A stretch of 64,000 nt of DNA, from contig OZ038423.1 of the NCBI GenBank assembly GCA_964036155.1, positions 16,197,249 through 16,261,248 on the forward strand, written 5' to 3'. A program made the translations under genes and the position numbers. The stretch comes from Diploscapter coronatus. Its lineage: Eukaryota; Nematoda; Chromadorea; Rhabditida; Rhabditidae. The notes below the pieces were generated by a model. The model did not search any database and had not been told where the DNA came from. It saw only the letters and a program-made list of their open reading frames with translations. Of this stretch, positions 1 through 54,160 are shown one piece after another. Within the stretch, counting starts at the first letter, position 1, and each line of letters begins with the position of its first letter.

Positions 1-2
1 AG

Positions 3-95
3 GTACGACGCCGAATTCGGGGCAGTCATCGACCTCGCAAAGCCAAGGTTCCTCTTCGACCTTGCCACAGACATCAACTATCGGAAGCAGTCAGA
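3..95 (+). other. Left-edge diverged exon of the array
   Basis: Bases 1-2 (AG) are the end of an intron that starts outside the window. The exon that follows is exactly 93 nt and keeps the S/T-rich phase-1 frame, but its first half differs from the canonical unit (GTTPNSGQSSTSQSQ in place of TATQNPTTASTSQTQ) and it uses GGT rather than GGG. The second half is canonical. This looks like the boundary between older, less homogenised exons and the array proper, so more gene lies to the left. Confidence 0.7.
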
Positions 96-3000
96 GTGAG
101 ATCAAAACAAAAGAAAAAAACTGATTGGATATTTAGCCGCCACTCAAAACCCAACAACGGCTTCGACCTCGCAAACCCAAGGGTCCTCTTCGACCTTGCC
201 ACAGACATCAACTATCGGAAGCAGTCAGAGTGAGATCAAAACAAAAGAAAAAAACTGATTGGATATTTAGCCGCCACTCAAAATCCAACAACGGCTTCGA
301 CCTCGCAAACCCAAGGGTCCTCTTCGACCTTGCCACAGACATCAACTATCGGAAGCAGTCAGAGTGAGATCAAAACAAAAGAAAAAAACTGATTGGATAT
401 TTAGCCGCCACTCAAAACCCAACAACGGCTTCGACCTCGCAAACCCAAGGGTCCTCTTCGACCTTGCCACAGACATCAACTATCGGAAGCAGTCAGAGTG
501 AGATTGAAACAAAAGAAAAAACTGATTAAATGAACATTTAGCCGCCACTCAAAATCCAACAACGGCTTCGACCTCGCAAACCCAAGGGTCCTCTTCGACC
601 TTGCCACAGACATCAACTATCGGAAGCAGTCAGAGTGAGATCAAAACAAAAGAAAAAAACTGATTGGATATTTAGCCGCCACTCAAAACCCAACAACGGC
701 TTCGACCTCGCAAACCCAAGGGTCCTCTTCGACCTTGCCACAGACATCAACTATCGGAAGCAGTCAGAGTGAGATCAAAACAAAAGAAAAAAACTGATTG
801 GATATTTAGCCGCCACTCAAAACCCAACAACGGCTTCGACCTCGCAAACCCAAGGGTCCTCTTCGACCTTGCCACAGACATCAACTATCGGAAGCAGTCA
901 GAGTGAGATTGAAACAAAAGAAAAAACTGATTAAATGAACATTTAGCCGCCACTCAAAATCCAACAACGGCTTCGACCTCGCAAACCCAAGGGTCCTCTT
1001 CGACCTTGCCACAGACATCAACTATCGGAAGCAGTCAGAGTGAGATCAAAACAAAAGAAAAAAACTGATTGGATATTTAGCCGCCACTCAAAATCCAACA
1101 ACGGCTTCGACCTCGCAAACCCAAGGGTCCTCTTCGACCTCACAAACCCAAGGGTCCTCTTCGACCTTACCACAGACGTCCGTTACAGGAAGCAGTCAGA
1201 GTGAGATCAAAACAAAAGAAAAAAAACTGATTGGATATTTAGCCGCCACTCAAAATCCAACAACGGCTTCGACCTCGCAAACCCAAGGGTCCTCTTCGAC
1301 CTCACAAACCCAAGGGTCCTCTTCGACCTTGCCACAGACATCAACTATCGGAAGCAGTCAGAGTGAGATTGAAACAAAAGAAAAAACTGATTAAATGAAC
1401 ATTTAGCCGCCACTCAAAATCCAACAACGGCTTCGACCTCGCAAACCCAAGGGTCCTCTTCGACCTTGCCACAGACATCAACTATCGGAAGCAGTCAGAG
1501 TGAGATCAAAACAAAAGAAAAAACTGATTAAATGAACATTTAGCCGCCACTCAAAATCCAACAACGGCTTCGACCTCACAAACCCAAGGGTCCTCTTCGA
1601 CCTTACCACAGACGTCCGTTACAGGAAGCAGTCAGAGTGAGATCAAAACAAAAGAAAAAAACTGATTGGATATTTAGCCGCCACTCAAAATCCAACAACG
1701 GCTTCGACCTCGCAAACCCAAGGGTCCTCTTCGACCTCACAAACCCAAGGGTCCTCTTCGACCTTACCACAGACATCAACTATCGGAAGCAGTCAGAGTG
1801 AGATCAAAACAAAAGAAAAAAACTGATTGGATATTTAGCCGCCACTCAAAATCCAACAACGGCTTCGACCTCGCAAACCCAAGGGTCCTCTTCGACCTTA
1901 CCACAGACGTCCGTTACAGGAAGCAGTCAGAGTGAGATCAAAACAAAAGAAAAAAACTGATTGGATATTTAGCCGCCACTCAAAATCCAACAACGGCTTC
2001 GACCTCGCAAACCCAAGGGTCCTCTTCGACCTCACAAACCCAAGGGTCCTCTTCGACCTTACCACAGACATCAACTATCGGAAGCAGTCAGAGTGAGATT
2101 GAAACAAAAGAAAAAACTGATTAAATGAACATTTAGCCGCCACTCAAAATCCAACAACGGCTTCGACCTCGCAAACCCAAGGGTCCTCTTCGACCTTGCC
2201 ACAGACATCAACTATCGGAAGCAGTCAGAGTGAGATCAAAACAAAAGAAAAAAACTGATTGGATATTTAGCCGCCACTCAAAATCCAACAACGGCTTCGA
2301 CCTCGCAAACCCAAGGGTCCTCTTCGACCTTGCCACAGACATCAACTATCGGAAGCAGTCAGAGTGAGATTGAAACAAAAGAAAAAAACTGATTGGATAT
2401 TTAGCCGCCACTCAAAATCCAACAACGGCTTCGACCTCACAAACCCAAGGGTCCTCTTCGACCTTGCCACAGACATCAACTATCGGAAGCAGTCAGAGTG
2501 AGATCAAAACAAAAGAAAAAAACTGATTGGATATTTAGCCGCCACTCAAAACCCAACAACGGCTTCGACCTCGCAAACCCAAGGGTCCTCTTCGACCTTA
2601 CCACAGACATCAACTATCGGAAGCAGTCAGAGTGAGATCAAAACAAAAGAAAAAAACTGATTGGATATTTAGCCGCCACTCAAAATCCAACAACGGCTTC
2701 GACCTCACAAACCCAAGGGTCCTCTTCGACCTTACCACAGACATCAACTATCGGAAGCAGTCAGAGTGAGATCAAAACAAAAGAAAAAAACTGATTGGAT
2801 ATTTAGCCGCCACTCAAAATCCAACAACGGCTTCGACCTCGCAAACCCAAGGGTCCTCTTCGACCTCACAAACCCAAGGGTCCTCTTCGACCTTGCCACA
2901 GACATCAACTATCGGAAGCAGTCAGAGTGAGATTGAAACAAAAGAAAAAACTGATTAAATGAACATTTAGCCGCCACTCAAAATCCAACAACGGCTTCGA

Positions 3001-6000
3001 CCTCGCAAACCCAAGGGTCCTCTTCGACCTTGCCACAGACATCAACTATCGGAAGCAGTCAGAGTGAGATCAAAACAAAAGAAAAAAACTGATTGGATAT
3101 TTAGCCGCCACTCAAAACCCAACAACGGCTTCGACCTCACAAACCCAAGGGTCCTCTTCGACCTTACCACAGACGTCCGTTACAGGAAGCAGTCAGAGTG
3201 AGATCAAAACAAAAGAAAAAAACTGATTGGATATTTAGCCGCCACTCAAAATCCAACAACGGCTTCGACCTCGCAAACCCAAGGGTCCTCTTCGACCTCA
3301 CAAACCCAAGGGTCCTCTTCGACCTTACCACAGACATCAACTATCGGAAGCAGTCAGAGTGAGATCAAAACAAAAGAAAAAAACTGATTGGATATTTAGC
3401 CGCCACTCAAAATCCAACAACGGCTTCGACCTCGCAAACCCAAGGGTCCTCTTCGACCTTACCACAGACGTCCGTTACAGGAAGCAGTCAGAGTGAGATC
3501 AAAACAAAAGAAAAAAACTGATTGGATATTTAGCCGCCACTCAAAATCCAACAACGGCTTCGACCTCGCAAACCCAAGGGTCCTCTTCGACCTCACAAAC
3601 CCAAGGGTCCTCTTCGACCTTACCACAGACATCAACTATCGGAAGCAGTCAGAGTGAGATCAAAACAAAAGAAAAAAACTGATTAAATGAACATTTAGCC
3701 GCCACTCAAAATCCAACAACGGCTTCGACCTCGCAAACCCAAGGGTCCTCTTCGACCTTACCACAGACATCAACTATCGGAAGCAGTCAGAGTGAGATTG
3801 AAACAAAAGAAAAAACTGATTAAATGAACATTTAGCCGCCACTCAAAATCCAACAACGGCTTCGACCTCGCAAACCCAAGGGTCCTCTTCGACCTTGCCA
3901 CAGACATCAACTATCGGAAGCAGTCAGAGTGAGATCAAAACAAAAGAAAAAAACTGATTGGATATTTAGCCGCCACTCAAAATCCAACAACGGCTTCGAC
4001 CTCGCAAACCCAAGGGTCCTCTTCGACCTCACAAACCCAAGGGTCCTCTTCGACCTTGCCACAGACATCAACTATCGGAAGCAGTCAGAGTGAGATTGAA
4101 ACAAAAGAAAAAAACTGATTGGATATTTAGCCGCCACTCAAAATCCAACAACGGCTTCGACCTCACAAACCCAAGGGTCCTCTTCGACCTTGCCACAGAC
4201 ATCAACTATCGGAAGCAGTCAGAGTGAGATCAAAACAAAAGAAAAAAACTGATTGGATATTTAGCCGCCACTCAAAACCCAACAACGGCTTCGACCTCGC
4301 AAACCCAAGGGTCCTCTTCGACCTTACCACAGACATCAACTATCGGAAGCAGTCAGAGTGAGATCAAAACAAAAGAAAAAAACTGATTGGATATTTAGCC
4401 GCCACTCAAAATCCAACAACGGCTTCGACCTCACAAACCCAAGGGTCCTCTTCGACCTTACCACAGACATCAACTATCGGAAGCAGTCAGAGTGAGATCA
4501 AAACAAAAGAAAAAAACTGATTGGATATTTAGCCGCCACTCAAAATCCAACAACGGCTTCGACCTCGCAAACCCAAGGGTCCTCTTCGACCTCACAAACC
4601 CAAGGGTCCTCTTCGACCTTACCACAGACATCAACTATCGGAAGCAGTCAGAGTGAGATCAAAACAAAAGAAAAAAACTGATTAAATGAACATTTAGCCG
4701 CCACTCAAAATCCAACAACGGCTTCGACCTCGCAAACCCAAGGGTCCTCTTCGACCTTACCACAGACATCAACTATCGGAAGCAGTCAGAGTGAGATTGA
4801 AACAAAAGAAAAAACTGATTAAATGAACATTTAGCCGCCACTCAAAATCCAACAACGGCTTCGACCTCGCAAACCCAAGGGTCCTCTTCGACCTTGCCAC
4901 AGACATCAACTATCGGAAGCAGTCAGAGTGAGATCAAAACAAAAGAAAAAAACTGATTGGATATTTAGCCGCCACTCAAAATCCAACAACGGCTTCGACC
5001 TCGCAAACCCAAGGGTCCTCTTCGACCTCACAAACCCAAGGGTCCTCTTCGACCTTGCCACAGACATCAACTATCGGAAGCAGTCAGAGTGAGATTGAAA
5101 CAAAAGAAAAAAACTGATTGGATATTTAGCCGCCACTCAAAATCCAACAACGGCTTCGACCTCACAAACCCAAGGGTCCTCTTCGACCTTGCCACAGACA
5201 TCAACTATCGGAAGCAGTCAGAGTGAGATCAAAACAAAAGAAAAAAACTGATTGGATATTTAGCCGCCACTCAAAACCCAACAACGGCTTCGACCTCGCA
5301 AACCCAAGGGTCCTCTTCGACCTTACCACAGACATCAACTATCGGAAGCAGTCAGAGTGAGATCAAAACAAAAGAAAAAAACTGATTGGATATTTAGCCG
5401 CCACTCAAAATCCAACAACGGCTTCGACCTCGCAAACCCAAGGGTCCTCTTCGACCTCACAAACCCAAGGGTCCTCTTCGACCTTGCCACAGACATCAAC
5501 TATCGGAAGCAGTCAGAGTGAGATTGAAACAAAAGAAAAAACTGATTAAATGAACATTTAGCCGCCACTCAAAATCCAACAACGGCTTCGACCTCACAAA
5601 CCCAAGGGTCCTCTTCGACCTTGCCACAGACATCAACTATCGGAAGCAGTCAGAGTGAGATCAAAACAAAAGAAAAAAACTGATTGGATATTTAGCCGCC
5701 ACTCAAAACCCAACAACGGCTTCGACCTCGCAAACCCAAGGGTCCTCTTCGACCTTACCACAGACATCAACTATCGGAAGCAGTCAGAGTGAGATCAAAA
5801 CAAAAGAAAAAAACTGATTGGATATTTAGCCGCCACTCAAAATCCAACAACGGCTTCGACCTCGCAAACCCAAGGGTCCTCTTCGACCTCACAAACCCAA
5901 GGGTCCTCTTCGACCTTGCCACAGACATCAACTATCGGAAGCAGTCAGAGTGAGATTGAAACAAAAGAAAAAACTGATTAAATGAACATTTAGCCGCCAC

Positions 6001-9000
6001 TCAAAATCCAACAACGGCTTCGACCTCGCAAACCCAAGGGTCCTCTTCGACCTTGCCACAGACATCAACTATCGGAAGCAGTCAGAGTGAGATCAAAACA
6101 AAAGAAAAAAACTGATTGGATATTTAGCCGCCACTCAAAATCCAACAACGGCTTCGACCTCGCAAACCCAAGGGTCCTCTTCGACCTCACAAACCCAAGG
6201 GTCCTCTTCGACCTTACCACAGACGTCCGTTACAGGAAGCAGTCAGAGTGAGATCAAAACAAAAGAAAAAAAACTGATTGGATATTTAGCCGCCACTCAA
6301 AATCCAACAACGGCTTCGACCTCGCAAACCCAAGGGTCCTCTTCGACCTCACAAACCCAAGGGTCCTCTTCGACCTTGCCACAGACATCAACTATCGGAA
6401 GCAGTCAGAGTGAGATTGAAACAAAAGAAAAAACTGATTAAATGAACATTTAGCCGCCACTCAAAATCCAACAACGGCTTCGACCTCGCAAACCCAAGGG
6501 TCCTCTTCGACCTTGCCACAGACATCAACTATCGGAAGCAGTCAGAGTGAGATCAAAACAAAAGAAAAAAACTGATTGGATATTTAGCCGCCACTCAAAA
6601 CCCAACAACGGCTTCGACCTCACAAACCCAAGGGTCCTCTTCGACCTTGCCACAGACATCAACTATCGGAAGCAGTCAGAGTGAGATCAAAACAAAAGAA
6701 AAAACTGATTAAATGAACATTTAGCCGCCACTCAAAATCCAACAACGGCTTCGACCTCGCAAACCCAAGGGTCCTCTTCGACCTTGCCACAGACATCAAC
6801 TATCGGAAGCAGTCAGAGTGAGATCAAAACAAAAGAAAAAACTGATTAAATGAACATTTAGCCGCCACTCAAAATCCAACAACGGCTTCGACCTCACAAA
6901 CCCAAGGGTCCTCTTCGACCTTACCACAGACGTCCGTTACAGGAAGCAGTCAGAGTGAGATCAAAACAAAAGAAAAAAACTGATTGGATATTTAGCCGCC
7001 ACTCAAAATCCAACAACGGCTTCGACCTCGCAAACCCAAGGGTCCTCTTCGACCTCACAAACCCAAGGGTCCTCTTCGACCTTACCACAGACATCAACTA
7101 TCGGAAGCAGTCAGAGTGAGATCAAAACAAAAGAAAAAAACTGATTGGATATTTAGCCGCCACTCAAAATCCAACAACGGCTTCGACCTCGCAAACCCAA
7201 GGGTCCTCTTCGACCTTACCACAGACGTCCGTTACAGGAAGCAGTCAGAGTGAGATCAAAACAAAAGAAAAAAACTGATTGGATATTTAGCCGCCACTCA
7301 AAATCCAACAACGGCTTCGACCTCGCAAACCCAAGGGTCCTCTTCGACCTTACCACAGACATCAACTATCGGAAGCAGTCAGAGTGAGATTGAAACAAAA
7401 GAAAAAACTGATTAAATGAACATTTAGCCGCCACTCAAAATCCAACAACGGCTTCGACCTCGCAAACCCAAGGGTCCTCTTCGACCTTGCCACAGACATC
7501 AACTATCGGAAGCAGTCAGAGTGAGATCAAAACAAAAGAAAAAAACTGATTGGATATTTAGCCGCCACTCAAAATCCAACAACGGCTTCGACCTCGCAAA
7601 CCCAAGGGTCCTCTTCGACCTCACAAACCCAAGGGTCCTCTTCGACCTTGCCACAGACATCAACTATCGGAAGCAGTCAGAGTGAGATTGAAACAAAAGA
7701 AAAAAACTGATTGGATATTTAGCCGCCACTCAAAATCCAACAACGGCTTCGACCTCACAAACCCAAGGGTCCTCTTCGACCTTGCCACAGACATCAACTA
7801 TCGGAAGCAGTCAGAGTGAGATCAAAACAAAAGAAAAAAACTGATTGGATATTTAGCCGCCACTCAAAACCCAACAACGGCTTCGACCTCGCAAACCCAA
7901 GGGTCCTCTTCGACCTTACCACAGACATCAACTATCGGAAGCAGTCAGAGTGAGATCAAAACAAAAGAAAAAAACTGATTGGATATTTAGCCGCCACTCA
8001 AAATCCAACAACGGCTTCGACCTCGCAAACCCAAGGGTCCTCTTCGACCTCACAAACCCAAGGGTCCTCTTCGACCTTGCCACAGACATCAACTATCGGA
8101 AGCAGTCAGAGTGAGATTGAAACAAAAGAAAAAACTGATTAAATGAACATTTAGCCGCCACTCAAAATCCAACAACGGCTTCGACCTCGCAAACCCAAGG
8201 GTCCTCTTCGACCTTGCCACAGACATCAACTATCGGAAGCAGTCAGAGTGAGATCAAAACAAAAGAAAAAAACTGATTGGATATTTAGCCGCCACTCAAA
8301 ATCCAACAACGGCTTCGACCTCGCAAACCCAAGGGTCCTCTTCGACCTCACAAACCCAAGGGTCCTCTTCGACCTTACCACAGACGTCCGTTACAGGAAG
8401 CAGTCAGAGTGAGATCAAAACAAAAGAAAAAAAACTGATTGGATATTTAGCCGCCACTCAAAATCCAACAACGGCTTCGACCTCGCAAACCCAAGGGTCC
8501 TCTTCGACCTCACAAACCCAAGGGTCCTCTTCGACCTTGCCACAGACATCAACTATCGGAAGCAGTCAGAGTGAGATTGAAACAAAAGAAAAAAACTGAT
8601 TGGATATTTAGCCGCCACTCAAAATCCAACAACGGCTTCGACCTCACAAACCCAAGGGTCCTCTTCGACCTTGCCACAGACATCAACTATCGGAAGCAGT
8701 CAGAGTGAGATCAAAACAAAAGAAAAAAACTGATTGGATATTTAGCCGCCACTCAAAACCCAACAACGGCTTCGACCTCGCAAACCCAAGGGTCCTCTTC
8801 GACCTTACCACAGACATCAACTATCGGAAGCAGTCAGAGTGAGATCAAAACAAAAGAAAAAAACTGATTGGATATTTAGCCGCCACTCAAAATCCAACAA
8901 CGGCTTCGACCTCGCAAACCCAAGGGTCCTCTTCGACCTCACAAACCCAAGGGTCCTCTTCGACCTTGCCACAGACATCAACTATCGGAAGCAGTCAGAG

Positions 9001-12000
9001 TGAGATTGAAACAAAAGAAAAAACTGATTAAATGAACATTTAGCCGCCACTCAAAATCCAACAACGGCTTCGACCTCGCAAACCCAAGGGTCCTCTTCGA
9101 CCTTGCCACAGACATCAACTATCGGAAGCAGTCAGAGTGAGATCAAAACAAAAGAAAAAAACTGATTGGATATTTAGCCGCCACTCAAAATCCAACAACG
9201 GCTTCGACCTCGCAAACCCAAGGGTCCTCTTCGACCTCACAAACCCAAGGGTCCTCTTCGACCTTACCACAGACGTCCGTTACAGGAAGCAGTCAGAGTG
9301 AGATCAAAACAAAAGAAAAAAAACTGATTGGATATTTAGCCGCCACTCAAAATCCAACAACGGCTTCGACCTCGCAAACCCAAGGGTCCTCTTCGACCTC
9401 ACAAACCCAAGGGTCCTCTTCGACCTTGCCACAGACATCAACTATCGGAAGCAGTCAGAGTGAGATTGAAACAAAAGAAAAAACTGATTAAATGAACATT
9501 TAGCCGCCACTCAAAATCCAACAACGGCTTCGACCTCGCAAACCCAAGGGTCCTCTTCGACCTTGCCACAGACATCAACTATCGGAAGCAGTCAGAGTGA
9601 GATCAAAACAAAAGAAAAAACTGATTAAATGAACATTTAGCCGCCACTCAAAATCCAACAACGGCTTCGACCTCACAAACCCAAGGGTCCTCTTCGACCT
9701 TACCACAGACGTCCGTTACAGGAAGCAGTCAGAGTGAGATCAAAACAAAAGAAAAAAACTGATTGGATATTTAGCCGCCACTCAAAATCCAACAACGGCT
9801 TCGACCTCGCAAACCCAAGGGTCCTCTTCGACCTTACCACAGACGTCCGTTACAGGAAGCAGTCAGAGTGAGATCAAAACAAAAGAAAAAAACTGATTGG
9901 ATATTTAGCCGCCACTCAAAACCCAACAACGGCTTCGACCTCGCAAACCCAAGGGTCCTCTTCGACCTTGCCACAGACATCAACTATCGGAAGCAGTCAG
10001 AGTGAGATCAAAACAAAAGAAAAAAACTGATTGGATATTTAGCCGCCACTCAAAATCCAACAACGGCTTCGACCTCGCAAACCCAAGGGTCCTCTTCGAC
10101 CTCACAAACCCAAGGGTCCTCTTCGACCTTACCACAGACGTCCGTTACAGGAAGCAGTCAGAGTGAGATCAAAACAAAAGAAAAAAAACTGATTGGATAT
10201 TTAGCCGCCACTCAAAACCCAACAACGGCTTCGACCTCACAAACCCAAGGGTCCTCTTCGACCTTGCCACAGACATCAACTATCGGAAGCAGTCAGAGTG
10301 AGATCAAAACAAAAGAAAAAAACTGATTGGATATTTAGCCGCCACTCAAAACCCAACAACGGCTTCGACCTCACAAACCCAAGGGTCCTCTTCGACCTTG
10401 CCACAGACATCAACTATCGGAAGCAGTCAGAGTGAGATCAAAACAAAAGAAAAAACTGATTAAATGAACATTTAGCCGCCACTCAAAATCCAACAACGGC
10501 TTCGACCTCGCAAACCCAAGGGTCCTCTTCGACCTCACAAACCCAAGGGTCCTCTTCGACCTTGCCACAGACATCAACTATCGGAAGCAGTCAGAGTGAG
10601 ATTGAAACAAAAGAAAAAACTGATTAAATGAACATTTAGCCGCCACTCAAAATCCAACAACGGCTTCGACCTCGCAAACCCAAGGGTCCTCTTCGACCTT
10701 GCCACAGACATCAACTATCGGAAGCAGTCAGAGTGAGATCAAAACAAAAGAAAAAACTGATTAAATGAACATTTAGCCGCCACTCAAAATCCAACAACGG
10801 CTTCGACCTCACAAACCCAAGGGTCCTCTTCGACCTTACCACAGACGTCCGTTACAGGAAGCAGTCAGAGTGAGATCAAAACAAAAGAAAAAAACTGATT
10901 GGATATTTAGCCGCCACTCAAAATCCAACAACGGCTTCGACCTCGCAAACCCAAGGGTCCTCTTCGACCTCACAAACCCAAGGGTCCTCTTCGACCTTAC
11001 CACAGACATCAACTATCGGAAGCAGTCAGAGTGAGATCAAAACAAAAGAAAAAAACTGATTGGATATTTAGCCGCCACTCAAAACCCAACAACGGCTTCG
11101 ACCTCGCAAACCCAAGGGTCCTCTTCGACCTTGCCACAGACATCAACTATCGGAAGCAGTCAGAGTGAGATCAAAACAAAAGAAAAAAACTGATTGGATA
11201 TTTAGCCGCCACTCAAAATCCAACAACGGCTTCGACCTCGCAAACCCAAGGGTCCTCTTCGACCTCACAAACCCAAGGGTCCTCTTCGACCTTACCACAG
11301 ACGTCCGTTACAGGAAGCAGTCAGAGTGAGATCAAAACAAAAGAAAAAAAACTGATTGGATATTTAGCCGCCACTCAAAATCCAACAACGGCTTCGACCT
11401 CGCAAACCCAAGGGTCCTCTTCGACCTCACAAACCCAAGGGTCCTCTTCGACCTTGCCACAGACATCAACTATCGGAAGCAGTCAGAGTGAGATTGAAAC
11501 AAAAGAAAAAACTGATTAAATGAACATTTAGCCGCCACTCAAAATCCAACAACGGCTTCGACCTCGCAAACCCAAGGGTCCTCTTCGACCTTGCCACAGA
11601 CATCAACTATCGGAAGCAGTCAGAGTGAGATCAAAACAAAAGAAAAAAACTGATTGGATATTTAGCCGCCACTCAAAACCCAACAACGGCTTCGACCTCA
11701 CAAACCCAAGGGTCCTCTTCGACCTTGCCACAGACATCAACTATCGGAAGCAGTCAGAGTGAGATCAAAACAAAAGAAAAAACTGATTAAATGAACATTT
11801 AGCCGCCACTCAAAATCCAACAACGGCTTCGACCTCACAAACCCAAGGGTCCTCTTCGACCTTACCACAGACGTCCGTTACAGGAAGCAGTCAGAGTGAG
11901 ATCAAAACAAAAGAAAAAAACTGATTGGATATTTAGCCGCCACTCAAAATCCAACAACGGCTTCGACCTCGCAAACCCAAGGGTCCTCTTCGACCTCACA

Positions 12001-39000: not shown

Positions 39001-42000
39001 CATTTAGCCGCCACTCAAAATCCAACAACGGCTTCGACCTCGCAAACCCAAGGGTCCTCTTCGACCTTGCCACAGACATCAACTATCGGAAGCAGTCAGA
39101 GTGAGATCAAAACAAAAGAAAAAACTGATTAAATGAACATTTAGCCGCCACTCAAAATCCAACAACGGCTTCGACCTCGCAAACCCAAGGGTCCTCTTCG
39201 ACCTTGCCACAGACATCAACTATCGGAAGCAGTCAGAGTGAGATCAAAACAAAAGAAAAAAACTGATTGGATATTTAGCCGCCACTCAAAATCCAACAAC
39301 GGCTTCGACCTCGCAAACCCAAGGGTCCTCTTCGACCTCACAAACCCAAGGGTCCTCTTCGACCTTACCACAGACGTCCGTTACAGGAAGCAGTCAGAGT
39401 GAGATCAAAACAAAAGAAAAAAACTGATTGGATATTTAGCCGCCACTCAAAACCCAACAACGGCTTCGACCTCGCAAACCCAAGGGTCCTCTTCGACCTT
39501 GCCACAGACATCAACTATCGGAAGCAGTCAGAGTGAGATCAAAACAAAAGAAAAAACTGATTAAATGAACATTTAGCCGCCACTCAAAATCCAACAACGG
39601 CTTCGACCTCGCAAACCCAAGGGTCCTCTTCGACCTTGCCACAGACATCAACTATCGGAAGCAGTCAGAGTGAGATCAAAACAAAAGAAAAAACTGATTA
39701 AATGAACATTTAGCCGCCACTCAAAATCCAACAACGGCTTCGACCTCGCAAACCCAAGGGTCCTCTTCGACCTTGCCACAGACATCAACTATCGGAAGCA
39801 GTCAGAGTGAGATTGAAACAAAAGAAAAAACTGATTAAATGAACATTTAGCCGCCACTCAAAATCCAACAACGGCTTCGACCTCGCAAACCCAAGGGTCC
39901 TCTTCGACCTTGCCACAGACATCAACTATCGGAAGCAGTCAGAGTGAGATTGAAACAAAAGAAAAAACTGATTAAATGAACATTTAGCCGCCACTCAAAA
40001 TCCAACAACGGCTTCGACCTCGCAAACCCAAGGGTCCTCTTCGACCTCACAAACCCAAGGGTCCTCTTCGACCTTACCACAGACGTCCGTTACAGGAAGC
40101 AGTCAGAGTGAGATCAAAACAAAAGAAAAAAACTGATTGGATATTTAGCCGCCACTCAAAACCCAACAACGGCTTCGACCTCGCAAACCCAAGGGTCCTC
40201 TTCGACCTTGCCACAGACATCAACTATCGGAAGCAGTCAGAGTGAGATTGAAACAAAAGAAAAAACTGATTAAATGAACATTTAGCCGCCACTCAAAATC
40301 CAACAACGGCTTCGACCTCGCAAACCCAAGGGTCCTCTTCGACCTTGCCACAGACATCAACTATCGGAAGCAGTCAGAGTGAGATCAAAACAAAAGAAAA
40401 AAACTGATTGGATATTTAGCCGCCACTCAAAACCCAACAACGGCTTCGACCTCGCAAACCCAAGGGTCCTCTTCGACCTTGCCACAGACATCAACTATCG
40501 GAAGCAGTCAGAGTGAGATTGAAACAAAAGAAAAAACTGATTAAATGAACATTTAGCCGCCACTCAAAATCCAACAACGGCTTCGACCTCGCAAACCCAA
40601 GGGTCCTCTTCGACCTCACAAACCCAAGGGTCCTCTTCGACCTTGCCACAGACATCAACTATCGGAAGCAGTCAGAGTGAGATTGAAACAAAAGAAAAAA
40701 CTGATTAAATGAACATTTAGCCGCCACTCAAAATCCAACAACGGCTTCGACCTCGCAAACCCAAGGGTCCTCTTCGACCTTGCCACAGACATCAACTATC
40801 GGAAGCAGTCAGAGTGAGATCAAAACAAAAGAAAAAACTGATTAAATGAACATTTAGCCGCCACTCAAAATCCAACAACGGCTTCGACCTCGCAAACCCA
40901 AGGGTCCTCTTCGACCTCACAAACCCAAGGGTCCTCTTCGACCTCACAAACCCAAGGGTCCTCTTCGACCTTGCCACAGACATCAACTATCGGAAGCAGT
41001 CAGAGTGAGATTGAAACAAAAGAAAAAACTGATTAAATGAACATTTAGCCGCCACTCAAAATCCAACAACGGCTTCGACCTCGCAAACCCAAGGGTCCTC
41101 TTCGACCTTGCCACAGACATCAACTATCGGAAGCAGTCAGAGTGAGATCAAAACAAAAGAAAAAAACTGATTGGATATTTAGCCGCCACTCAAAATCCAA
41201 CAACGGCTTCGACCTCGCAAACCCAAGGGTCCTCTTCGACCTCACAAACCCAAGGGTCCTCTTCGACCTTACCACAGACGTCCGTTACAGGAAGCAGTCA
41301 GAGTGAGATCAAAACAAAAGAAAAAAACTGATTGGATATTTAGCCGCCACTCAAAACCCAACAACGGCTTCGACCTCGCAAACCCAAGGGTCCTCTTCGA
41401 CCTTGCCACAGACATCAACTATCGGAAGCAGTCAGAGTGAGATTGAAACAAAAGAAAAAACTGATTAAATGAACATTTAGCCGCCACTCAAAATCCAACA
41501 ACGGCTTCGACCTCGCAAACCCAAGGGTCCTCTTCGACCTTGCCACAGACATCAACTATCGGAAGCAGTCAGAGTGAGATCAAAACAAAAGAAAAAAACT
41601 GATTGGATATTTAGCCGCCACTCAAAACCCAACAACGGCTTCGACCTCGCAAACCCAAGGGTCCTCTTCGACCTTGCCACAGACATCAACTATCGGAAGC
41701 AGTCAGAGTGAGATTGAAACAAAAGAAAAAACTGATTAAATGAACATTTAGCCGCCACTCAAAATCCAACAACGGCTTCGACCTCGCAAACCCAAGGGTC
41801 CTCTTCGACCTCACAAACCCAAGGGTCCTCTTCGACCTTGCCACAGACATCAACTATCGGAAGCAGTCAGAGTGAGATTGAAACAAAAGAAAAAACTGAT
41901 TAAATGAACATTTAGCCGCCACTCAAAATCCAACAACGGCTTCGACCTCGCAAACCCAAGGGTCCTCTTCGACCTTGCCACAGACATCAACTATCGGAAG

Positions 42001-45000
42001 CAGTCAGAGTGAGATCAAAACAAAAGAAAAAACTGATTAAATGAACATTTAGCCGCCACTCAAAATCCAACAACGGCTTCGACCTCGCAAACCCAAGGGT
42101 CCTCTTCGACCTCACAAACCCAAGGGTCCTCTTCGACCTCACAAACCCAAGGGTCCTCTTCGACCTTGCCACAGACATCAACTATCGGAAGCAGTCAGAG
42201 TGAGATTGAAACAAAAGAAAAAACTGATTAAATGAACATTTAGCCGCCACTCAAAATCCAACAACGGCTTCGACCTCGCAAACCCAAGGGTCCTCTTCGA
42301 CCTTGCCACAGACATCAACTATCGGAAGCAGTCAGAGTGAGATCAAAACAAAAGAAAAAAACTGATTGGATATTTAGCCGCCACTCAAAACCCAACAACG
42401 GCTTCGACCTCGCAAACCCAAGGGTCCTCTTCGACCTTGCCACAGACATCAACTATCGGAAGCAGTCAGAGTGAGATCAAAACAAAAGAAAAAACTGATT
42501 AAATGAACATTTAGCCGCCACTCAAAATCCAACAACGGCTTCGACCTCGCAAACCCAAGGGTCCTCTTCGACCTTGCCACAGACATCAACTATCGGAAGC
42601 AGTCAGAGTGAGATCAAAACAAAAGAAAAAACTGATTAAATGAACATTTAGCCGCCACTCAAAATCCAACAACGGCTTCGACCTCGCAAACCCAAGGGTC
42701 CTCTTCGACCTTGCCACAGACATCAACTATCGGAAGCAGTCAGAGTGAGATCAAAACAAAAGAAAAAAACTGATTGGATATTTAGCCGCCACTCAAAATC
42801 CAACAACGGCTTCGACCTCGCAAACCCAAGGGTCCTCTTCGACCTCACAAACCCAAGGGTCCTCTTCGACCTTACCACAGACGTCCGTTACAGGAAGCAG
42901 TCAGAGTGAGATCAAAACAAAAGAAAAAAACTGATTGGATATTTAGCCGCCACTCAAAACCCAACAACGGCTTCGACCTCGCAAACCCAAGGGTCCTCTT
43001 CGACCTTGCCACAGACATCAACTATCGGAAGCAGTCAGAGTGAGATTGAAACAAAAGAAAAAACTGATTAAATGAACATTTAGCCGCCACTCAAAATCCA
43101 ACAACGGCTTCGACCTCGCAAACCCAAGGGTCCTCTTCGACCTTGCCACAGACATCAACTATCGGAAGCAGTCAGAGTGAGATTGAAACAAAAGAAAAAA
43201 CTGATTAAATGAACATTTAGCCGCCACTCAAAATCCAACAACGGCTTCGACCTCGCAAACCCAAGGGTCCTCTTCGACCTCACAAACCCAAGGGTCCTCT
43301 TCGACCTTACCACAGACGTCCGTTACAGGAAGCAGTCAGAGTGAGATCAAAACAAAAGAAAAAAACTGATTGGATATTTAGCCGCCACTCAAAACCCAAC
43401 AACGGCTTCGACCTCGCAAACCCAAGGGTCCTCTTCGACCTTGCCACAGACATCAACTATCGGAAGCAGTCAGAGTGAGATTGAAACAAAAGAAAAAACT
43501 GATTAAATGAACATTTAGCCGCCACTCAAAATCCAACAACGGCTTCGACCTCGCAAACCCAAGGGTCCTCTTCGACCTTGCCACAGACATCAACTATCGG
43601 AAGCAGTCAGAGTGAGATCAAAACAAAAGAAAAAAACTGATTGGATATTTAGCCGCCACTCAAAACCCAACAACGGCTTCGACCTCGCAAACCCAAGGGT
43701 CCTCTTCGACCTTGCCACAGACATCAACTATCGGAAGCAGTCAGAGTGAGATTGAAACAAAAGAAAAAACTGATTAAATGAACATTTAGCCGCCACTCAA
43801 AATCCAACAACGGCTTCGACCTCGCAAACCCAAGGGTCCTCTTCGACCTCACAAACCCAAGGGTCCTCTTCGACCTTGCCACAGACATCAACTATCGGAA
43901 GCAGTCAGAGTGAGATTGAAACAAAAGAAAAAACTGATTAAATGAACATTTAGCCGCCACTCAAAATCCAACAACGGCTTCGACCTCGCAAACCCAAGGG
44001 TCCTCTTCGACCTTGCCACAGACATCAACTATCGGAAGCAGTCAGAGTGAGATCAAAACAAAAGAAAAAAACTGATTGGATATTTAGCCGCCACTCAAAA
44101 CCCAACAACGGCTTCGACCTCGCAAACCCAAGGGTCCTCTTCGACCTTGCCACAGACATCAACTATCGGAAGCAGTCAGAGTGAGATTGAAACAAAAGAA
44201 AAAACTGATTAAATGAACATTTAGCCGCCACTCAAAATCCAACAACGGCTTCGACCTCGCAAACCCAAGGGTCCTCTTCGACCTTGCCACAGACATCAAC
44301 TATCGGAAGCAGTCAGAGTGAGATCAAAACAAAAGAAAAAAACTGATTGGATATTTAGCCGCCACTCAAAACCCAACAACGGCTTCGACCTCGCAAACCC
44401 AAGGGTCCTCTTCGACCTTGCCACAGACATCAACTATCGGAAGCAGTCAGAGTGAGATTGAAACAAAAGAAAAAACTGATTAAATGAACATTTAGCCGCC
44501 ACTCAAAATCCAACAACGGCTTCGACCTCGCAAACCCAAGGGTCCTCTTCGACCTTGCCACAGACATCAACTATCGGAAGCAGTCAGAGTGAGATTGAAA
44601 CAAAAGAAAAAACTGATTAAATGAACATTTAGCCGCCACTCAAAATCCAACAACGGCTTCGACCTCGCAAACCCAAGGGTCCTCTTCGACCTCACAAACC
44701 CAAGGGTCCTCTTCGACCTTACCACAGACGTCCGTTACAGGAAGCAGTCAGAGTGAGATCAAAACAAAAGAAAAAAACTGATTGGATATTTAGCCGCCAC
44801 TCAAAACCCAACAACGGCTTCGACCTCGCAAACCCAAGGGTCCTCTTCGACCTTGCCACAGACATCAACTATCGGAAGCAGTCAGAGTGAGATTGAAACA
44901 AAAGAAAAAACTGATTAAATGAACATTTAGCCGCCACTCAAAATCCAACAACGGCTTCGACCTCGCAAACCCAAGGGTCCTCTTCGACCTTGCCACAGAC

Positions 45001-48000
45001 ATCAACTATCGGAAGCAGTCAGAGTGAGATCAAAACAAAAGAAAAAAACTGATTGGATATTTAGCCGCCACTCAAAACCCAACAACGGCTTCGACCTCGC
45101 AAACCCAAGGGTCCTCTTCGACCTTGCCACAGACATCAACTATCGGAAGCAGTCAGAGTGAGATTGAAACAAAAGAAAAAACTGATTAAATGAACATTTA
45201 GCCGCCACTCAAAATCCAACAACGGCTTCGACCTCGCAAACCCAAGGGTCCTCTTCGACCTCACAAACCCAAGGGTCCTCTTCGACCTTGCCACAGACAT
45301 CAACTATCGGAAGCAGTCAGAGTGAGATTGAAACAAAAGAAAAAACTGATTAAATGAACATTTAGCCGCCACTCAAAATCCAACAACGGCTTCGACCTCG
45401 CAAACCCAAGGGTCCTCTTCGACCTTGCCACAGACATCAACTATCGGAAGCAGTCAGAGTGAGATTGAAACAAAAGAAAAAACTGATTAAATGAACATTT
45501 AGCCGCCACTCAAAATCCAACAACGGCTTCGACCTCGCAAACCCAAGGGTCCTCTTCGACCTTGCCACAGACATCAACTATCGGAAGCAGTCAGAGTGAG
45601 ATCAAAACAAAAGAAAAAAACTGATTGGATATTTAGCCGCCACTCAAAACCCAACAACGGCTTCGACCTCGCAAACCCAAGGGTCCTCTTCGACCTTGCC
45701 ACAGACATCAACTATCGGAAGCAGTCAGAGTGAGATTGAAACAAAAGAAAAAACTGATTAAATGAACATTTAGCCGCCACTCAAAATCCAACAACGGCTT
45801 CGACCTCGCAAACCCAAGGGTCCTCTTCGACCTTGCCACAGACATCAACTATCGGAAGCAGTCAGAGTGAGATCAAAACAAAAGAAAAAACTGATTAAAT
45901 GAACATTTAGCCGCCACTCAAAATCCAACAACGGCTTCGACCTCGCAAACCCAAGGGTCCTCTTCGACCTTGCCACAGACATCAACTATCGGAAGCAGTC
46001 AGAGTGAGATTGAAACAAAAGAAAAAACTGATTAAATGAACATTTAGCCGCCACTCAAAATCCAACAACGGCTTCGACCTCGCAAACCCAAGGGTCCTCT
46101 TCGACCTCACAAACCCAAGGGTCCTCTTCGACCTTACCACAGACGTCCGTTACAGGAAGCAGTCAGAGTGAGATCAAAACAAAAGAAAAAAACTGATTGG
46201 ATATTTAGCCGCCACTCAAAATCCAACAACGGCTTCGACCTCGCAAACCCAAGGGTCCTCTTCGACCTTGCCACAGACATCAACTATCGGAAGCAGTCAG
46301 AGTGAGATCAAAACAAAAGAAAAAACTGATTAAATGAACATTTAGCCGCCACTCAAAATCCAACAACGGCTTCGACCTCGCAAACCCAAGGGTCCTCTTC
46401 GACCTTGCCACAGACATCAACTATCGGAAGCAGTCAGAGTGAGATTGAAACAAAAGAAAAAACTGATTAAATGAACATTTAGCCGCCACTCAAAATCCAA
46501 CAACGGCTTCGACCTCGCAAACCCAAGGGTCCTCTTCGACCTCACAAACCCAAGGGTCCTCTTCGACCTTACCACAGACGTCCGTTACAGGAAGCAGTCA
46601 GAGTGAGATCAAAACAAAAGAAAAAAACTGATTGGATATTTAGCCGCCACTCAAAATCCAACAACGGCTTCGACCTCGCAAACCCAAGGGTCCTCTTCGA
46701 CCTTGCCACAGACATCAACTATCGGAAGCAGTCAGAGTGAGATTGAAACAAAAGAAAAAACTGATTAAATGAACATTTAGCCGCCACTCAAAATCCAACA
46801 ACGGCTTCGACCTCGCAAACCCAAGGGTCCTCTTCGACCTCACAAACCCAAGGGTCCTCTTCGACCTTGCCACAGACATCAACTATCGGAAGCAGTCAGA
46901 GTGAGATTGAAACAAAAGAAAAAACTGATTAAATGAACATTTAGCCGCCACTCAAAATCCAACAACGGCTTCGACCTCGCAAACCCAAGGGTCCTCTTCG
47001 ACCTTGCCACAGACATCAACTATCGGAAGCAGTCAGAGTGAGATCAAAACAAAAGAAAAAAACTGATTGGATATTTAGCCGCCACTCAAAACCCAACAAC
47101 GGCTTCGACCTCGCAAACCCAAGGGTCCTCTTCGACCTTGCCACAGACATCAACTATCGGAAGCAGTCAGAGTGAGATTGAAACAAAAGAAAAAACTGAT
47201 TAAATGAACATTTAGCCGCCACTCAAAATCCAACAACGGCTTCGACCTCGCAAACCCAAGGGTCCTCTTCGACCTTGCCACAGACATCAACTATCGGAAG
47301 CAGTCAGAGTGAGATCAAAACAAAAGAAAAAAACTGATTGGATATTTAGCCGCCACTCAAAACCCAACAACGGCTTCGACCTCGCAAACCCAAGGGTCCT
47401 CTTCGACCTTGCCACAGACATCAACTATCGGAAGCAGTCAGAGTGAGATTGAAACAAAAGAAAAAACTGATTAAATGAACATTTAGCCGCCACTCAAAAT
47501 CCAACAACGGCTTCGACCTCGCAAACCCAAGGGTCCTCTTCGACCTTGCCACAGACATCAACTATCGGAAGCAGTCAGAGTGAGATTGAAACAAAAGAAA
47601 AAACTGATTAAATGAACATTTAGCCGCCACTCAAAATCCAACAACGGCTTCGACCTCGCAAACCCAAGGGTCCTCTTCGACCTCACAAACCCAAGGGTCC
47701 TCTTCGACCTTACCACAGACGTCCGTTACAGGAAGCAGTCAGAGTGAGATCAAAACAAAAGAAAAAAACTGATTGGATATTTAGCCGCCACTCAAAACCC
47801 AACAACGGCTTCGACCTCGCAAACCCAAGGGTCCTCTTCGACCTTGCCACAGACATCAACTATCGGAAGCAGTCAGAGTGAGATTGAAACAAAAGAAAAA
47901 ACTGATTAAATGAACATTTAGCCGCCACTCAAAATCCAACAACGGCTTCGACCTCGCAAACCCAAGGGTCCTCTTCGACCTTGCCACAGACATCAACTAT

Positions 48001-50984
48001 CGGAAGCAGTCAGAGTGAGATCAAAACAAAAGAAAAAAACTGATTGGATATTTAGCCGCCACTCAAAACCCAACAACGGCTTCGACCTCGCAAACCCAAG
48101 GGTCCTCTTCGACCTTGCCACAGACATCAACTATCGGAAGCAGTCAGAGTGAGATTGAAACAAAAGAAAAAACTGATTAAATGAACATTTAGCCGCCACT
48201 CAAAATCCAACAACGGCTTCGACCTCGCAAACCCAAGGGTCCTCTTCGACCTCACAAACCCAAGGGTCCTCTTCGACCTTGCCACAGACATCAACTATCG
48301 GAAGCAGTCAGAGTGAGATTGAAACAAAAGAAAAAACTGATTAAATGAACATTTAGCCGCCACTCAAAATCCAACAACGGCTTCGACCTCGCAAACCCAA
48401 GGGTCCTCTTCGACCTTGCCACAGACATCAACTATCGGAAGCAGTCAGAGTGAGATCAAAACAAAAGAAAAAAACTGATTGGATATTTAGCCGCCACTCA
48501 AAACCCAACAACGGCTTCGACCTCGCAAACCCAAGGGTCCTCTTCGACCTTGCCACAGACATCAACTATCGGAAGCAGTCAGAGTGAGATTGAAACAAAA
48601 GAAAAAACTGATTAAATGAACATTTAGCCGCCACTCAAAATCCAACAACGGCTTCGACCTCGCAAACCCAAGGGTCCTCTTCGACCTTGCCACAGACATC
48701 AACTATCGGAAGCAGTCAGAGTGAGATCAAAACAAAAGAAAAAAACTGATTGGATATTTAGCCGCCACTCAAAACCCAACAACGGCTTCGACCTCGCAAA
48801 CCCAAGGGTCCTCTTCGACCTTGCCACAGACATCAACTATCGGAAGCAGTCAGAGTGAGATTGAAACAAAAGAAAAAACTGATTAAATGAACATTTAGCC
48901 GCCACTCAAAATCCAACAACGGCTTCGACCTCGCAAACCCAAGGGTCCTCTTCGACCTCACAAACCCAAGGGTCCTCTTCGACCTTGCCACAGACATCAA
49001 CTATCGGAAGCAGTCAGAGTGAGATTGAAACAAAAGAAAAAACTGATTAAATGAACATTTAGCCGCCACTCAAAATCCAACAACGGCTTCGACCTCGCAA
49101 ACCCAAGGGTCCTCTTCGACCTTGCCACAGACATCAACTATCGGAAGCAGTCAGAGTGAGATCAAAACAAAAGAAAAAAACTGATTGGATATTTAGCCGC
49201 CACTCAAAACCCAACAACGGCTTCGACCTCGCAAACCCAAGGGTCCTCTTCGACCTTGCCACAGACATCAACTATCGGAAGCAGTCAGAGTGAGATTGAA
49301 ACAAAAGAAAAAACTGATTAAATGAACATTTAGCCGCCACTCAAAATCCAACAACGGCTTCGACCTCGCAAACCCAAGGGTCCTCTTCGACCTCACAAAC
49401 CCAAGGGTCCTCTTCGACCTTGCCACAGACATCAACTATCGGAAGCAGTCAGAGTGAGATTGAAACAAAAGAAAAAACTGATTAAATGAACATTTAGCCG
49501 CCACTCAAAATCCAACAACGGCTTCGACCTCGCAAACCCAAGGGTCCTCTTCGACCTTGCCACAGACATCAACTATCGGAAGCAGTCAGAGTGAGATCAA
49601 AACAAAAGAAAAAAACTGATTGGATATTTAGCCGCCACTCAAAACCCAACAACGGCTTCGACCTCGCAAACCCAAGGGTCCTCTTCGACCTTGCCACAGA
49701 CATCAACTATCGGAAGCAGTCAGAGTGAGATTGAAACAAAAGAAAAAACTGATTAAATGAACATTTAGCCGCCACTCAAAATCCAACAACGGCTTCGACC
49801 TCGCAAACCCAAGGGTCCTCTTCGACCTCACAAACCCAAGGGTCCTCTTCGACCTTGCCACAGACATCAACTATCGGAAGCAGTCAGAGTGAGATTGAAA
49901 CAAAAGAAAAAACTGATTAAATGAACATTTAGCCGCCACTCAAAATCCAACAACGGCTTCGACCTCGCAAACCCAAGGGTCCTCTTCGACCTTGCCACAG
50001 ACATCAACTATCGGAAGCAGTCAGAGTGAGATCAAAACAAAAGAAAAAACTGATTAAATGAACATTTAGCCGCCACTCAAAATCCAACAACGGCTTCGAC
50101 CTCGCAAACCCAAGGGTCCTCTTCGACCTTGCCACAGACATCAACTATCGGAAGCAGTCAGAGTGAGATTGAAACAAAAGAAAAAACTGATTAAATGAAC
50201 ATTTAGCCGCCACTCAAAATCCAACAACGGCTTCGACCTCGCAAACCCAAGGGTCCTCTTCGACCTCACAAACCCAAGGGTCCTCTTCGACCTTACCACA
50301 GACGTCCGTTACAGGAAGCAGTCAGAGTGAGATCAAAACAAAAGAAAAAAACTGATTGGATATTTAGCCGCCACTCAAAATCCAACAACGGCTTCGACCT
50401 CGCAAACCCAAGGGTCCTCTTCGACCTTGCCACAGACATCAACTATCGGAAGCAGTCAGAGTGAGATCAAAACAAAAGAAAAAAACTGATTGGATATTTA
50501 GCCGCCACTCAAAATCCAACAACGGCTTCGACCTCACAAACCCAAGGTTCTTCTTCGACTGTGTTGCCGCAGACGTCAACTGTGGGATCTAGCTCAACAG
50601 CGAACACTGGTATGACAAAATGTTAATTTGGAATTGGAGAAGTGAATTTAGGTTCCTCGACAATGGGGATGACTCCGGTTTCCGCTACAGGTATATGCTT
50701 TGATTTTTGAATTCTTGAAACTGGAAATTTAAGGCTCGTCAGCAGTTGCAGCTCAACAACCTCCGGTACTACTGCGAGCATCACGTCACCGAGTAAGTAT
50801 CAGAGCAAATTGACTGATAGAATGTTCAATAGTTCACAAATGCATATTTTCTCGCGTGAGCATGATAATCTCAATATCCTACTGGTTGAATTGAACTAGT
50901 TTCTTTTAAATTCCAGGTTCAAGTGCATTCATAAACTCGGTTAGCTCGCCATCTGGAACTTCAATGTCCAGCACACAAACATAA
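3..50984 (+). CDS. Giant mucin-like Ser/Thr/Gln-rich protein gene, internal and 3' part (several hundred tandem exons)
   Basis: Seen: the whole array reads as exons joined by short introns. Exons are 93, 120 or 147 nt, each starting CCGCCACTCAAAA and ending CAGTCAGA. Introns are 41-45 nt, GTGAGAT to TTTAG, with a CTGAT branch-like motif about 12 nt before the acceptor. Every exon is phase 1-1. The 31-residue module begins TATQNPTTAS and ends TSTIGSSQ; it has 9 Thr, 8 Ser, 5 Gln, 2 Pro, no charge and no Cys. Each intron has an in-frame stop (TGA or TAA), so splicing is obligatory. The last exon ends at TAA 50,982-50,984. Known: such composition is typical of O-glycosylated mucin domains. Inferred: about 330-350 exons and roughly 12,000 residues in the window, estimated from unit length. 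The start, and any signal peptide, lie left of the window. Not excluded: a non-expressed array derived from a gene, or an adhesive/silk-like rather than mucin protein. Confidence 0.72.
96..229 (+). repeat. Representative 134-bp unit: 41-nt intron (96-136) plus 93-nt exon (137-229)
   Basis: The intron begins GTGAGATC, has an A-rich middle, then CTGATTGG and ends ATATTTAG. The exon runs to CAGTCAGA before the next GTGAG donor. Splicing A|CC recreates an ACC Thr codon at every junction. Other intron classes are 42 nt (one extra A), 44 nt (tail TAAATGAACATTTAG, with GAGATTGA or GAGATCAA heads) and 45 nt (tail as in the 44-nt class, with an extra A; e.g. around 3,661 and 26,105). Confidence 0.85.
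12790..20990 (+). repeat. Array sub-zone with a single tail type (TTGCCA / ATCAACTATC)
   Basis: In this stretch of about 8 kb I see only the TTG-CCA-CAG-ACA-TCA-ACT-ATC exon tail. The ACGTCCGTTACA tail and the TTA Leu codon, both common before about 12,760 and after about 21,010, are not seen. Exons here have one or two 27-nt subrepeats, never three. The alternation of 41-nt and 44-nt introns is regular, indicating a recent local expansion from a few units. Confidence 0.6.
24761..25690 (+). repeat. Recombinant array units
   Basis: The unit at 24,763-24,787 joins the TTGCCA form to the ACGTCCGTTACA tail. The unit at 25,653-25,677 joins TTGCCA-CAGACA to TCCGTTACA. Both are hybrids of the two common tail types with switch points a few bases apart, which looks like gene conversion inside one exon. 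The hybrids still encode an uninterrupted module. Confidence 0.6.
33158..34676 (+). repeat. Higher-order repeat, 970-bp period
   Basis: Triple-subrepeat exons at 33,158/33,481 recur with the same types and spacing at 34,128/34,451, an exact 970-bp shift, and the units between also match. A 1,195-bp shift links the blocks at 40,792 and 41,987, and a 1,271-bp shift links 21,601 and 22,872. These are multi-unit tandem duplications superposed on the basic unit. Confidence 0.7.
50502..50984 (+). other. Unique 3' exons of the mucin-like gene
   Basis: Predicted exons are 50,502-50,609 (108 nt; last, diverged repeat-like unit, ending AACACT-G), 50,652-50,690 (39 nt), 50,734-50,792 (59 nt) and 50,917-50,984 (terminal, ending SSTQT-stop). 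Donors are GTATGA, GTATAT and GTAAGT; acceptors are TTTAG, TTAAG and TTCCAG. The composition stays S/T-rich. The 59-nt exon is not a multiple of three. Its best S/T frame (STTSGTTASITSP) fits the last exon but not the exon before it. Skipping it joins 50,690 to 50,917 in frame. Confidence 0.6.
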
Positions 50985-51280: not shown

Positions 51281-51330
51281 AACTGCCCGGAAAACGGCCA
51301 GGGCTGGGATTCAAGTAAAATTACACCCCC

Positions 51331-51395
51331 CTGTAAAAATTTTACAACATAGATCTATGCTGTAAAATTTTTACAGGGGGGGGGGGGGGGGGGGG
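51331..51395. repeat. Internal palindrome and 20-G run inside the TIR element
   Basis: CCTGTAAAAATTTTACA is mirrored around an AGATCT centre by TGTAAAATTTTTACAGG, giving a near-perfect hairpin. It is followed directly by about 20 consecutive G (about 51,376-51,395). The G run is much longer than the six C of the facing arm. Confidence 0.8.
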
Positions 51396-51987
51396 TGTAA
51401 AATAGAATTCTCTAAGAGTGTTTCTTTGATATTTTTCTTACCTTTATACGAGTGAATATTATTTATTTTAGGTTTATATCGATATGGGCGTACTTTTGAA
51501 GTAATTTTCAACATGATTAGGGAATTTAATATCAAAATTGGACATATTTTATTTTAGAATAGCAAGCCCCAAATAGCATTAGAACATGCAGAATAAATTA
51601 GAATATAGGCGAGATATCTTCAGTCTTGCTCAATAAGCGTCTACGAACATTTTGACGCCAAACTTGAATTTTTCCGATAAAGAAAAATGATTCTCGAAGA
51701 TTTGAAATTCAATTTTTTCAGAAAAGAGCTTAAAACGTAAGAAATGGATCTTATAATTCAGTCTTATCTTCATATAAGTTATTAGCATAATTTAATACTC
51801 AATTTGTAAAATTCCGGACTCATTCATGCTCTCTACTATTTAGTTCATTTTTTACACTTGTTTCTTATGATATTATGCTATACTCGTGTTCGAGGAGCGT
51901 TCTTCTTTCATATAAAGCCTATTTTTGTCAAAATACTTGTTAAAAACCAATTATATTTGACATTTTAAATAAAAAATATCAATTTTA

Positions 51988-52100
51988 CATGGGGGTGTAA
52001 ATTTTACAGGGGGGTTGTAAAATTTTTACAGGGGGGTGTAATTTGAGTTGTAAAATTTTTACAGGGGGGTGTAAAATTTACAATTACAGGGGGGGTGTAA
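51988..52100 (+). repeat. G-rich short tandem subrepeats near the right end of the TIR element
   Basis: Four to five copies of a degenerate motif resembling TTTTTACAGGGGGGTGTAA are spaced 20-45 bp apart, with G-runs of 5-7. They share sequence with the terminal inverted repeat, as if the TIR had been internally multiplied. Confidence 0.65.
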
Positions 52101-52121
52101 ATTTTACTTGAATCCCAGCCC

Positions 52122-53542: not shown

Positions 53543-54160
53543 ATGTTAGCCAAATTACCAGTCGAACTTATATTGTTGATCTGCGAATATCCCGAATTCA
53601 AGGATCTGGGACAATTGGTCTGAACTAACAAGCGGATGATGCAAATAATCAAGAAATATCTGCCGATAGCTCTCGAGAGGAAATTCTTATTCTATCGTAA
53701 GAAGTTACGTTGAAAGCTAAGTAAGAGACTTTGAAACGATTCGTAATAATTTAGTTTATTATCGAAATACTCGTAAATATGAAGGAAGGATATGCTTGTT
53801 CAACTCATTTACCCGTTCAGCAAGAGGTTGCAAGATTCCACAATTATTATCAGTCATATCAAGTAGCAACTACACAGAATAAAGTAAATTCTTATGCTCT
53901 TCATTTTGAATAGCTTCTTAGACTTCAGATTTTTGGAATTAACAGCATAAATAAATCATTATTTGAAATCTTCGACTTGAATACTCGACAAATTTTAAAA
54001 GGTCTTATAAACAAATCCATGAATGATCGATTCAAAGGATTTTGTAGGCCCATACCTTCCTGAATTACGTACTACTGCATCTGTCGCTTATTTCAAAGGA
54101 AAATTGTATTATTTGGGTGGATGTGATCCTGAAACAAGAAGAATAACAGATCGAGTTGAT
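53543..54160 (+). pseudogene. Truncated F-box / kelch-repeat gene remnant
   Basis: ATG at 53,543 opens an F-box-like N-terminus: residues 5-9 are LPVEL, then LICEYPEFKDLGQL, as in substrate adaptors of SCF ubiquitin ligases. An in-frame TGA at 53,621 interrupts it, but the same frame continues with TNKRMMQIIKKYLP, as an F-box should. A donor at 53,697 (GTAAGA) and an acceptor ending 53,754 lead to an exon that hits TAA near 53,879. Exons 53,929-54,001 and 54,048-54,160, joined across a 46-nt phase-1 intron, encode kelch-blade sequence (FGINS, LFEIFDLNTR, then LYYLGGCDPETRR). A good donor (GTAAGA) at 54,161 has no matching downstream exon: the GART-like start lies 56 bp on and no further blades are seen. 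Two stops plus truncation favour a pseudogene. Alternatives are an unrecognised intron across the TGA or assembly error. Confidence 0.65.

Follow-up and report, generated by a model that had tools for sequence, protein, structure and literature searches.

Results

The window, by which we mean the whole 64-kb stretch of DNA analysed here (C2:16197249-16261248), comes from an assembly of 169,703,327 bases with the contigs C1 (87,717,704 bases), C2 (81,972,245 bases) and C3 (13,378 bases). We infer that this assembly looks like the phased diploid assembly of a one-chromosome nematode. The Diploscapter coronatus genome has been described as a 170-Mb diploid with 2n=2 and 5.7% heterozygosity in a parthenogenetic animal (PMC5483258, in excerpt), and that of D. 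pachys as 157.7 Mb in one chromosome (PMC9071541, in excerpt).

Most of the window is occupied by an array on the plus strand (96..50501) that consists of 342 short introns (the first at 96-136, the last at 50461-50501) and the 341 complete exons between them, copy numbers throughout being those of the assembly. The introns were located across the whole window by a pattern search for GTGAG...TTTAG followed by CCGCC. They comprise six sequences, of 41 nt (195 copies), 44 nt (123), 42 nt (20) and 45 nt (4). As the preliminary description had stated for each unit, a GTGAG donor, a CTGAT branch-like motif (CTGATT in full) and a TTTAG acceptor are present in all of them (342/342), and the donor and acceptor sequences are intact throughout. 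The exons are 93 nt (207), 120 nt (110) or 147 nt (24) long. Every one of the 341 is a multiple of three and has phase 1-1 ends, again as had been described, although homogenisation of copies within one array means that these are not 341 independent observations. Exon lengths step by 27 nt and intron lengths by 1, 3 or 4 nt.

The units (134-191 bp, one exon each, more than 340 in number) are highly alike. There are 26 distinct exon sequences among 341 and six distinct introns among 342, with variable columns amounting to 10 of 93 in the 93-nt exons and 11 of 45 in an alignment of the six introns; the several hundred near-identical micro-exons and 41-45-nt introns that had been proposed are thus borne out. 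Exon plus intron units fall into 46 distinct types among 341, arranged in mixed order, and the longest exact repeat of units spans 15 units at a shift of 24. The 41-nt intron, searched with up to three mismatches, occurs 195 times in the 169.7-Mb assembly, which equals the count of 41-nt introns in the window; among the matches listed (the first 100), all lie in this array. The same search found none on the other strand of the assembly, and a reversed control also gave zero. The array does not extend upstream of the window. No Rfam family matched in the window at gathering scores.

When joined, the exons form one open frame that runs for 12,614 codons through 359 exons, 346 of them inside the window. 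The preliminary description was right that the array is the body of the gene, but the start lies outside the window, with 13 exons upstream (exons 1-13, plus strand, window -2535 to -43, C2:16194713-16197205; exon 1 at C2:16194713). These upstream exons include a 412-nt exon rich in S, T and P, followed by five phase-2 micro-exons of 75 or 78 nt that form a small separate array. Exon 14 (3..95, plus strand, 93 nt; its acceptor TTTAAG ends at position 2) is a diverged first copy of the repeated exon and is in phase with exon 13.

At the other end, also on the plus strand, a diverged last copy of 108 nt (exon 356, 50502..50609) continues in phase and is followed by a unique 39-nt exon (exon 357, 50652..50690), a 59-nt exon (exon 358, 50734..50792) and the coding part of exon 359 (50917..50934). 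The single frame into a diverged unit and unique 3' exons, as first proposed, therefore stands; the proposed stop at 50984 does not. With its 59 nt, exon 358 takes the frame from phase 1 to phase 0, and reading on from there first meets a stop at the TAA of 50932-50934, 50 nt earlier. The stop at 50984 is in another phase and would need another splice site. Since the homologue on C1 also has a 59-nt exon at this place and the same ending, we take 50932-50934 as the end of the gene.

Computed retention of single array introns would introduce an in-frame stop in 322 of 342 cases; retention of the 20 introns of 42 nt would be silent, with the frame read through. Openness of the array exons was considered as proof of coding and dropped. 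Whichever of the three forward frames is read, the C2 consensus exon is free of stops, as are the 106 complete exons of the C1 array, so that openness of the array is weak evidence of coding. What carries the coding case is the evidence from the flanking exons, from exon lengths and from the second homologue.

C1 and C2 are homologous at this locus, with about 26 kb downstream that is collinear at 92-95% identity. The homologous gene (C1:17064554-17101049) lies between the same inverted repeats and is turned round relative to the outer flanks. It is open over 8,973 codons in 131 exons, and its first exons and last two match those on C2. On both homologues the frame runs continuously from start to stop with GT-AG introns. 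Its body is built differently. The C1 array has 107 introns (106 of 43 nt and one of 42 nt) whose sequence is unlike that of the C2 introns, and its 106 complete exons of 84, 123, 162, 201, 240, 279 or 357 nt are all multiples of three (106/106). After this array come a retroelement-bearing intron and then a single exon of 10,527 nt, mostly made of 69-nt repeats; the predicted frame of this exon has no stop, whereas the two remaining forward frames have 79 and 106. The retroelement piece (L014:2440-4431, minus strand) carries a 663-residue open reading frame with a gag-type aspartyl protease domain and sits in the 3,135-nt intron that follows C1 exon 123.

Matches of at least 50 nt to the C2-type exon number 343 on C2 and 3 on C1, with 1 and 2 in two 10-kb pieces that hold paralogues; for the C1-type exon the counts are 110 on C1 and 0 on C2, with 9 and 5 in the same two pieces. 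Each homologue has thus amplified a different exon. Two arrays with different exons and introns that follow the same frame rule at the same gene are the strongest evidence in this analysis.

The protein search of the genome returned 29 exon-level matches (E<=1). Besides the gene and its homologue, these form four groups on C1 (25.72-25.76 Mb) and two on C2 (24.13-24.14 Mb), which were read as loci of about 3 kb and two 10-kb pieces. Five of these groups, all but that at C2:24141, yielded paralogous N-termini, whose exons were joined with those of C2 as the alignment guide. None of the five contains a stop, GT follows all 30 exons, and AG precedes all 25 internal exons. Exon lengths differ in 7 of 30 cases, and all seven differences are multiples of three. 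One pair of paralogues (C1:25747555-25748318 and C2:24141048-24141811) has identical scores in all four exon matches, unlike other copies, possibly as a result of recent conversion between homologues.

Constraint on the N-terminal part is weak. Between the alleles, dN/dS is 0.52 over exons 1-7 (P=0.0026) and 0.58 over exons 1-6 (P=0.07), and over 21 pairs dN/dS for exons 1-6 ranges from 0.48 to 1.02, with most values not significantly below 1. Among the variable columns of the repeats, the third codon position accounts for 6 of 10 in the 93-nt exons of C2 and for 14 of 27 in 40 C1 exons of 84 nt; pooled, this is 20 of 37 (P=0.007), a test that treats the columns as independent although they are linked and is optimistic for that reason. 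Third positions account for 9 of 15 variable columns in the 39-nt modules of C1, and the 69-nt repeats have 8, 8 and 11 variable columns by codon position (third, 11/27). This is a fast-evolving protein, as surface mucins may be.

The model protein consists of 27.7% S, 27.6% T and 16.4% Q; the S/T/Q-rich product of about 12,000 residues that had been proposed agrees with the roughly 12,600 residues modelled here. Its predicted N-terminus is short and basic, with one hydrophobic stretch followed by a domain of about 200 residues. The stalk of about 12,000 residues consists of modules of 31, 40 or 49 residues, one exon each, and has the long S/T-rich tandem repeats of a mucin-like protein (S plus T, 56% of the repeat part). 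Judging from this S/T content and the N-terminal hydrophobic stretch, we expect the stalk to be heavily O-glycosylated and extracellular.

The N-terminal domain had no Pfam family above cut-off in any of seven N-termini. Against the protein collection, the single sequence gave 849 candidates, none with E<=0.001, and an alignment query gave 4,621 candidates, none with E<=0.1. A PDB profile search with this domain returned 11 sequences, mostly antibody light chains aligned across about 50 residues (best E 3.1e-5); we regard these hits as chance. No Pfam or protein match indicated a non-repeat domain shared with known mucin families. The comparison with spidroin terminal domains covered the N-terminal domain, which has no Pfam match.

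An inverted duplication of about 6 kb, whose GART-like gene has AIR synthase and formyltransferase domains, lies on both sides of the giant gene, at window 52120-57921 and C2:16187704-16193694. Its arms on C2 are 99.6% (3,022 bp), 96.4% (2,439 bp) and 97.8% (365 bp) identical, and the C1 homologue also has the inverted duplication, with arms 97.1-99.1% identical. The segment between the inverted repeats is in opposite orientation on the two homologues (C2:16.19-16.25 Mb versus C1:17.06-17.10 Mb) and is bordered by collinear outer flanks, an arrangement that exchange between the arms would be expected to produce. Shortly after the end of the gene lie repeated motifs of the tgtaaaatttttacagggggg type with a long run of G (window 51327-51407 and 51990-52110). 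An open frame of 285 residues, charged, rich in Ser and Pro and without a Pfam match (window 58368-59225, minus strand), is probably part of a further gene.

Discussion

What looks at first like a 50-kb satellite very probably encodes the body of a single giant gene for a membrane-tethered, mucin-like protein, whose stalk may have grown by frame-neutral duplication of cassettes. The preliminary description had already taken the apparent satellite for the exon-intron body of a giant mucin-like gene, and a single frame with 5' and 3' exons common to the homologue supports it. The reading is much stronger because the array lies between 5' and 3' exons common to the homologous chromosome and the 5' exons recur in paralogues. 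From the DNA, the gene is predicted to be transcribed and its introns spliced, and the glycosylated product would be located at the surface with a putative role in the surface coat or mucus. The product would begin with a basic N-terminus, one anchor and the domain of about 200 residues, and continue through a few divergent S/T/P/Q micro-exons into the stalk of about 12,000 residues.

The growth mechanism that we propose rests on a cassette of exon plus intron, phase 1-1, with the exon a multiple of three. Because of these properties, gain, loss or exchange of whole cassettes would keep both the frame and the splice sites, as would crossover or conversion between cassettes, so that size can change freely. 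Unequal exchange or gene conversion of such cassettes may have driven both the growth of the stalk and its homogenisation, with the homologous chromosomes amplifying different founder exons and one of them also acquiring the 10.5-kb repeat exon.

The same gene could instead normally skip most of its array exons and yield a ladder of shorter proteins, the array then being mainly a by-product of splicing or of copy number. Since all exons are phase 1-1, splicing could jump over any number of them: the 341 exons are interchangeable for frame, and with splice sites this similar the spliceosome presumably cannot tell neighbours apart. We nevertheless consider this unlikely, because the splice sites are intact in all 342 introns and no sequence feature predicts skipping. 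Alternatively, this could be a gene or allele that has ceased to produce protein and holds a satellite-like expansion; the array would then be neutral, its frame a leftover from the founder exon. Such a reading would fit the strong homogenisation and the weak dN/dS signal in the N-terminal domain, and as the founder was already a multiple of three, neutral copies would inherit its length. It is decidedly improbable, however, as both homologues and the five paralogous N-termini that were read are open, the 10.5-kb exon is open solely in the predicted forward frame, and the alleles have dN<dS over exons 1-7. Differences in multiples of three also occur at several independent places, including the inner repeats of 27 and 39 nt. 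A non-coding satellite would lie outside a gene with unit lengths free of frame, whereas this array sits between shared gene exons and all its exons are multiples of three.

Misjoined long reads could in principle account for how many units there are, for their order or for the inverted flanks. Inverted repeats of 96-99.6% identity do flank the segment, and scaffolding errors can create palindromes (PMC7953838, in excerpt). Against such an artefact, the 164 kb and 90 kb that were read contain no N, the 46 unit types occur in mixed order rather than as one unit copied, both homologues have the inverted flanks, which share only 88-94% identity from one homologue to the other, and the outer flanks are collinear at 92-95%. 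We regard an assembly error as extremely improbable, and the reading as the coding body of a giant mucin-like gene is the one that we carry forward.

In typical mucins the repeats lie in one or a few large exons. The present gene resembles membrane-tethered mucins in its S/T-rich repeat stalk on a protein predicted to be membrane-anchored, and its C1 allele includes a 10.5-kb exon of repeats as well; the C2 allele, unlike typical mucins, splits its repeats into about 340 exons. No sequence relationship to membrane-tethered mucins was found for the N-terminal domain in Pfam or the protein collection. Many short symmetric exons are also a trait of the micro-exon genes of schistosomes, which are flatworms; there the exons are not near-identical copies and the proteins are small.

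Successive near-identical exons and introns within one gene recall the spider silk genes Flag and MaSp2, whose exons and introns are much larger and fewer. Those genes encode silk that is not S/T-rich, and they belong to another phylum. In Flag of Nephila and MaSp2 of Argiope trifasciata, the succession of near-identical introns and exons has been explained by intragenic recombination (PMC1885213, in excerpt), and there too it occurs in one gene for a giant repetitive protein. Human LPA carries 1 to about 40 intron-bearing coding repeats of 5.6 kb, with two exons each, in numbers that vary between alleles (PMC11462820, in excerpt). Its KIV-2 repeat, like the present one, is a coding tandem repeat in which every unit has its introns; unlike the folded kringle domains of LPA, there is here one exon per 134-191 bp unit, more than 340 units, and amplification of different exons by the homologues. 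With spider Flag, Argiope MaSp2 and LPA as precedents, as far as the excerpts of PMC1885213 and PMC11462820 go, the preliminary claim that no gene of this architecture had been described went too far.

We found no description of this gene or layout in the open-licence literature searched, and its scale, micro-exon size and allele-specific founders are undescribed as far as our searches reach. The exons of titin, an intracellular muscle protein of unrelated sequence, are not near-identical copies. Human titin (connectin) has 363 exons, called the largest number (PMC12198301, in excerpt), against 359 in the present model. The gene thus joins known traits, namely iterated introns, allele-variable repeats and an exon number in the range of titin, in extreme form, and what it adds to them is that the founders differ between the two homologues.

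What appears to be a 50-kb satellite can be coding, and gene prediction on repeat-masked sequence would lose such a gene. The locus offers a natural test of two things: how the spliceosome deals with about 340 near-identical introns of 41-45 nt in a row, and how coding repeats expand if every one of them brings an intron of its own. With a cassette that its intron would make frame-safe, this gene, whose exon number is in the titin range, would serve as a permanent source of giant repeat proteins. Because the intron-bearing exon cassette that was amplified differs between the homologues, we tentatively suggest that one animal, probably parthenogenetic, might make two different giant mucins from the same gene, possibly with a ladder of isoforms produced by skipping of symmetric exons. 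With different founders on the homologues and a single 10.5-kb repeat exon on one of them, two ways of building a giant mucin can be compared within one genome.
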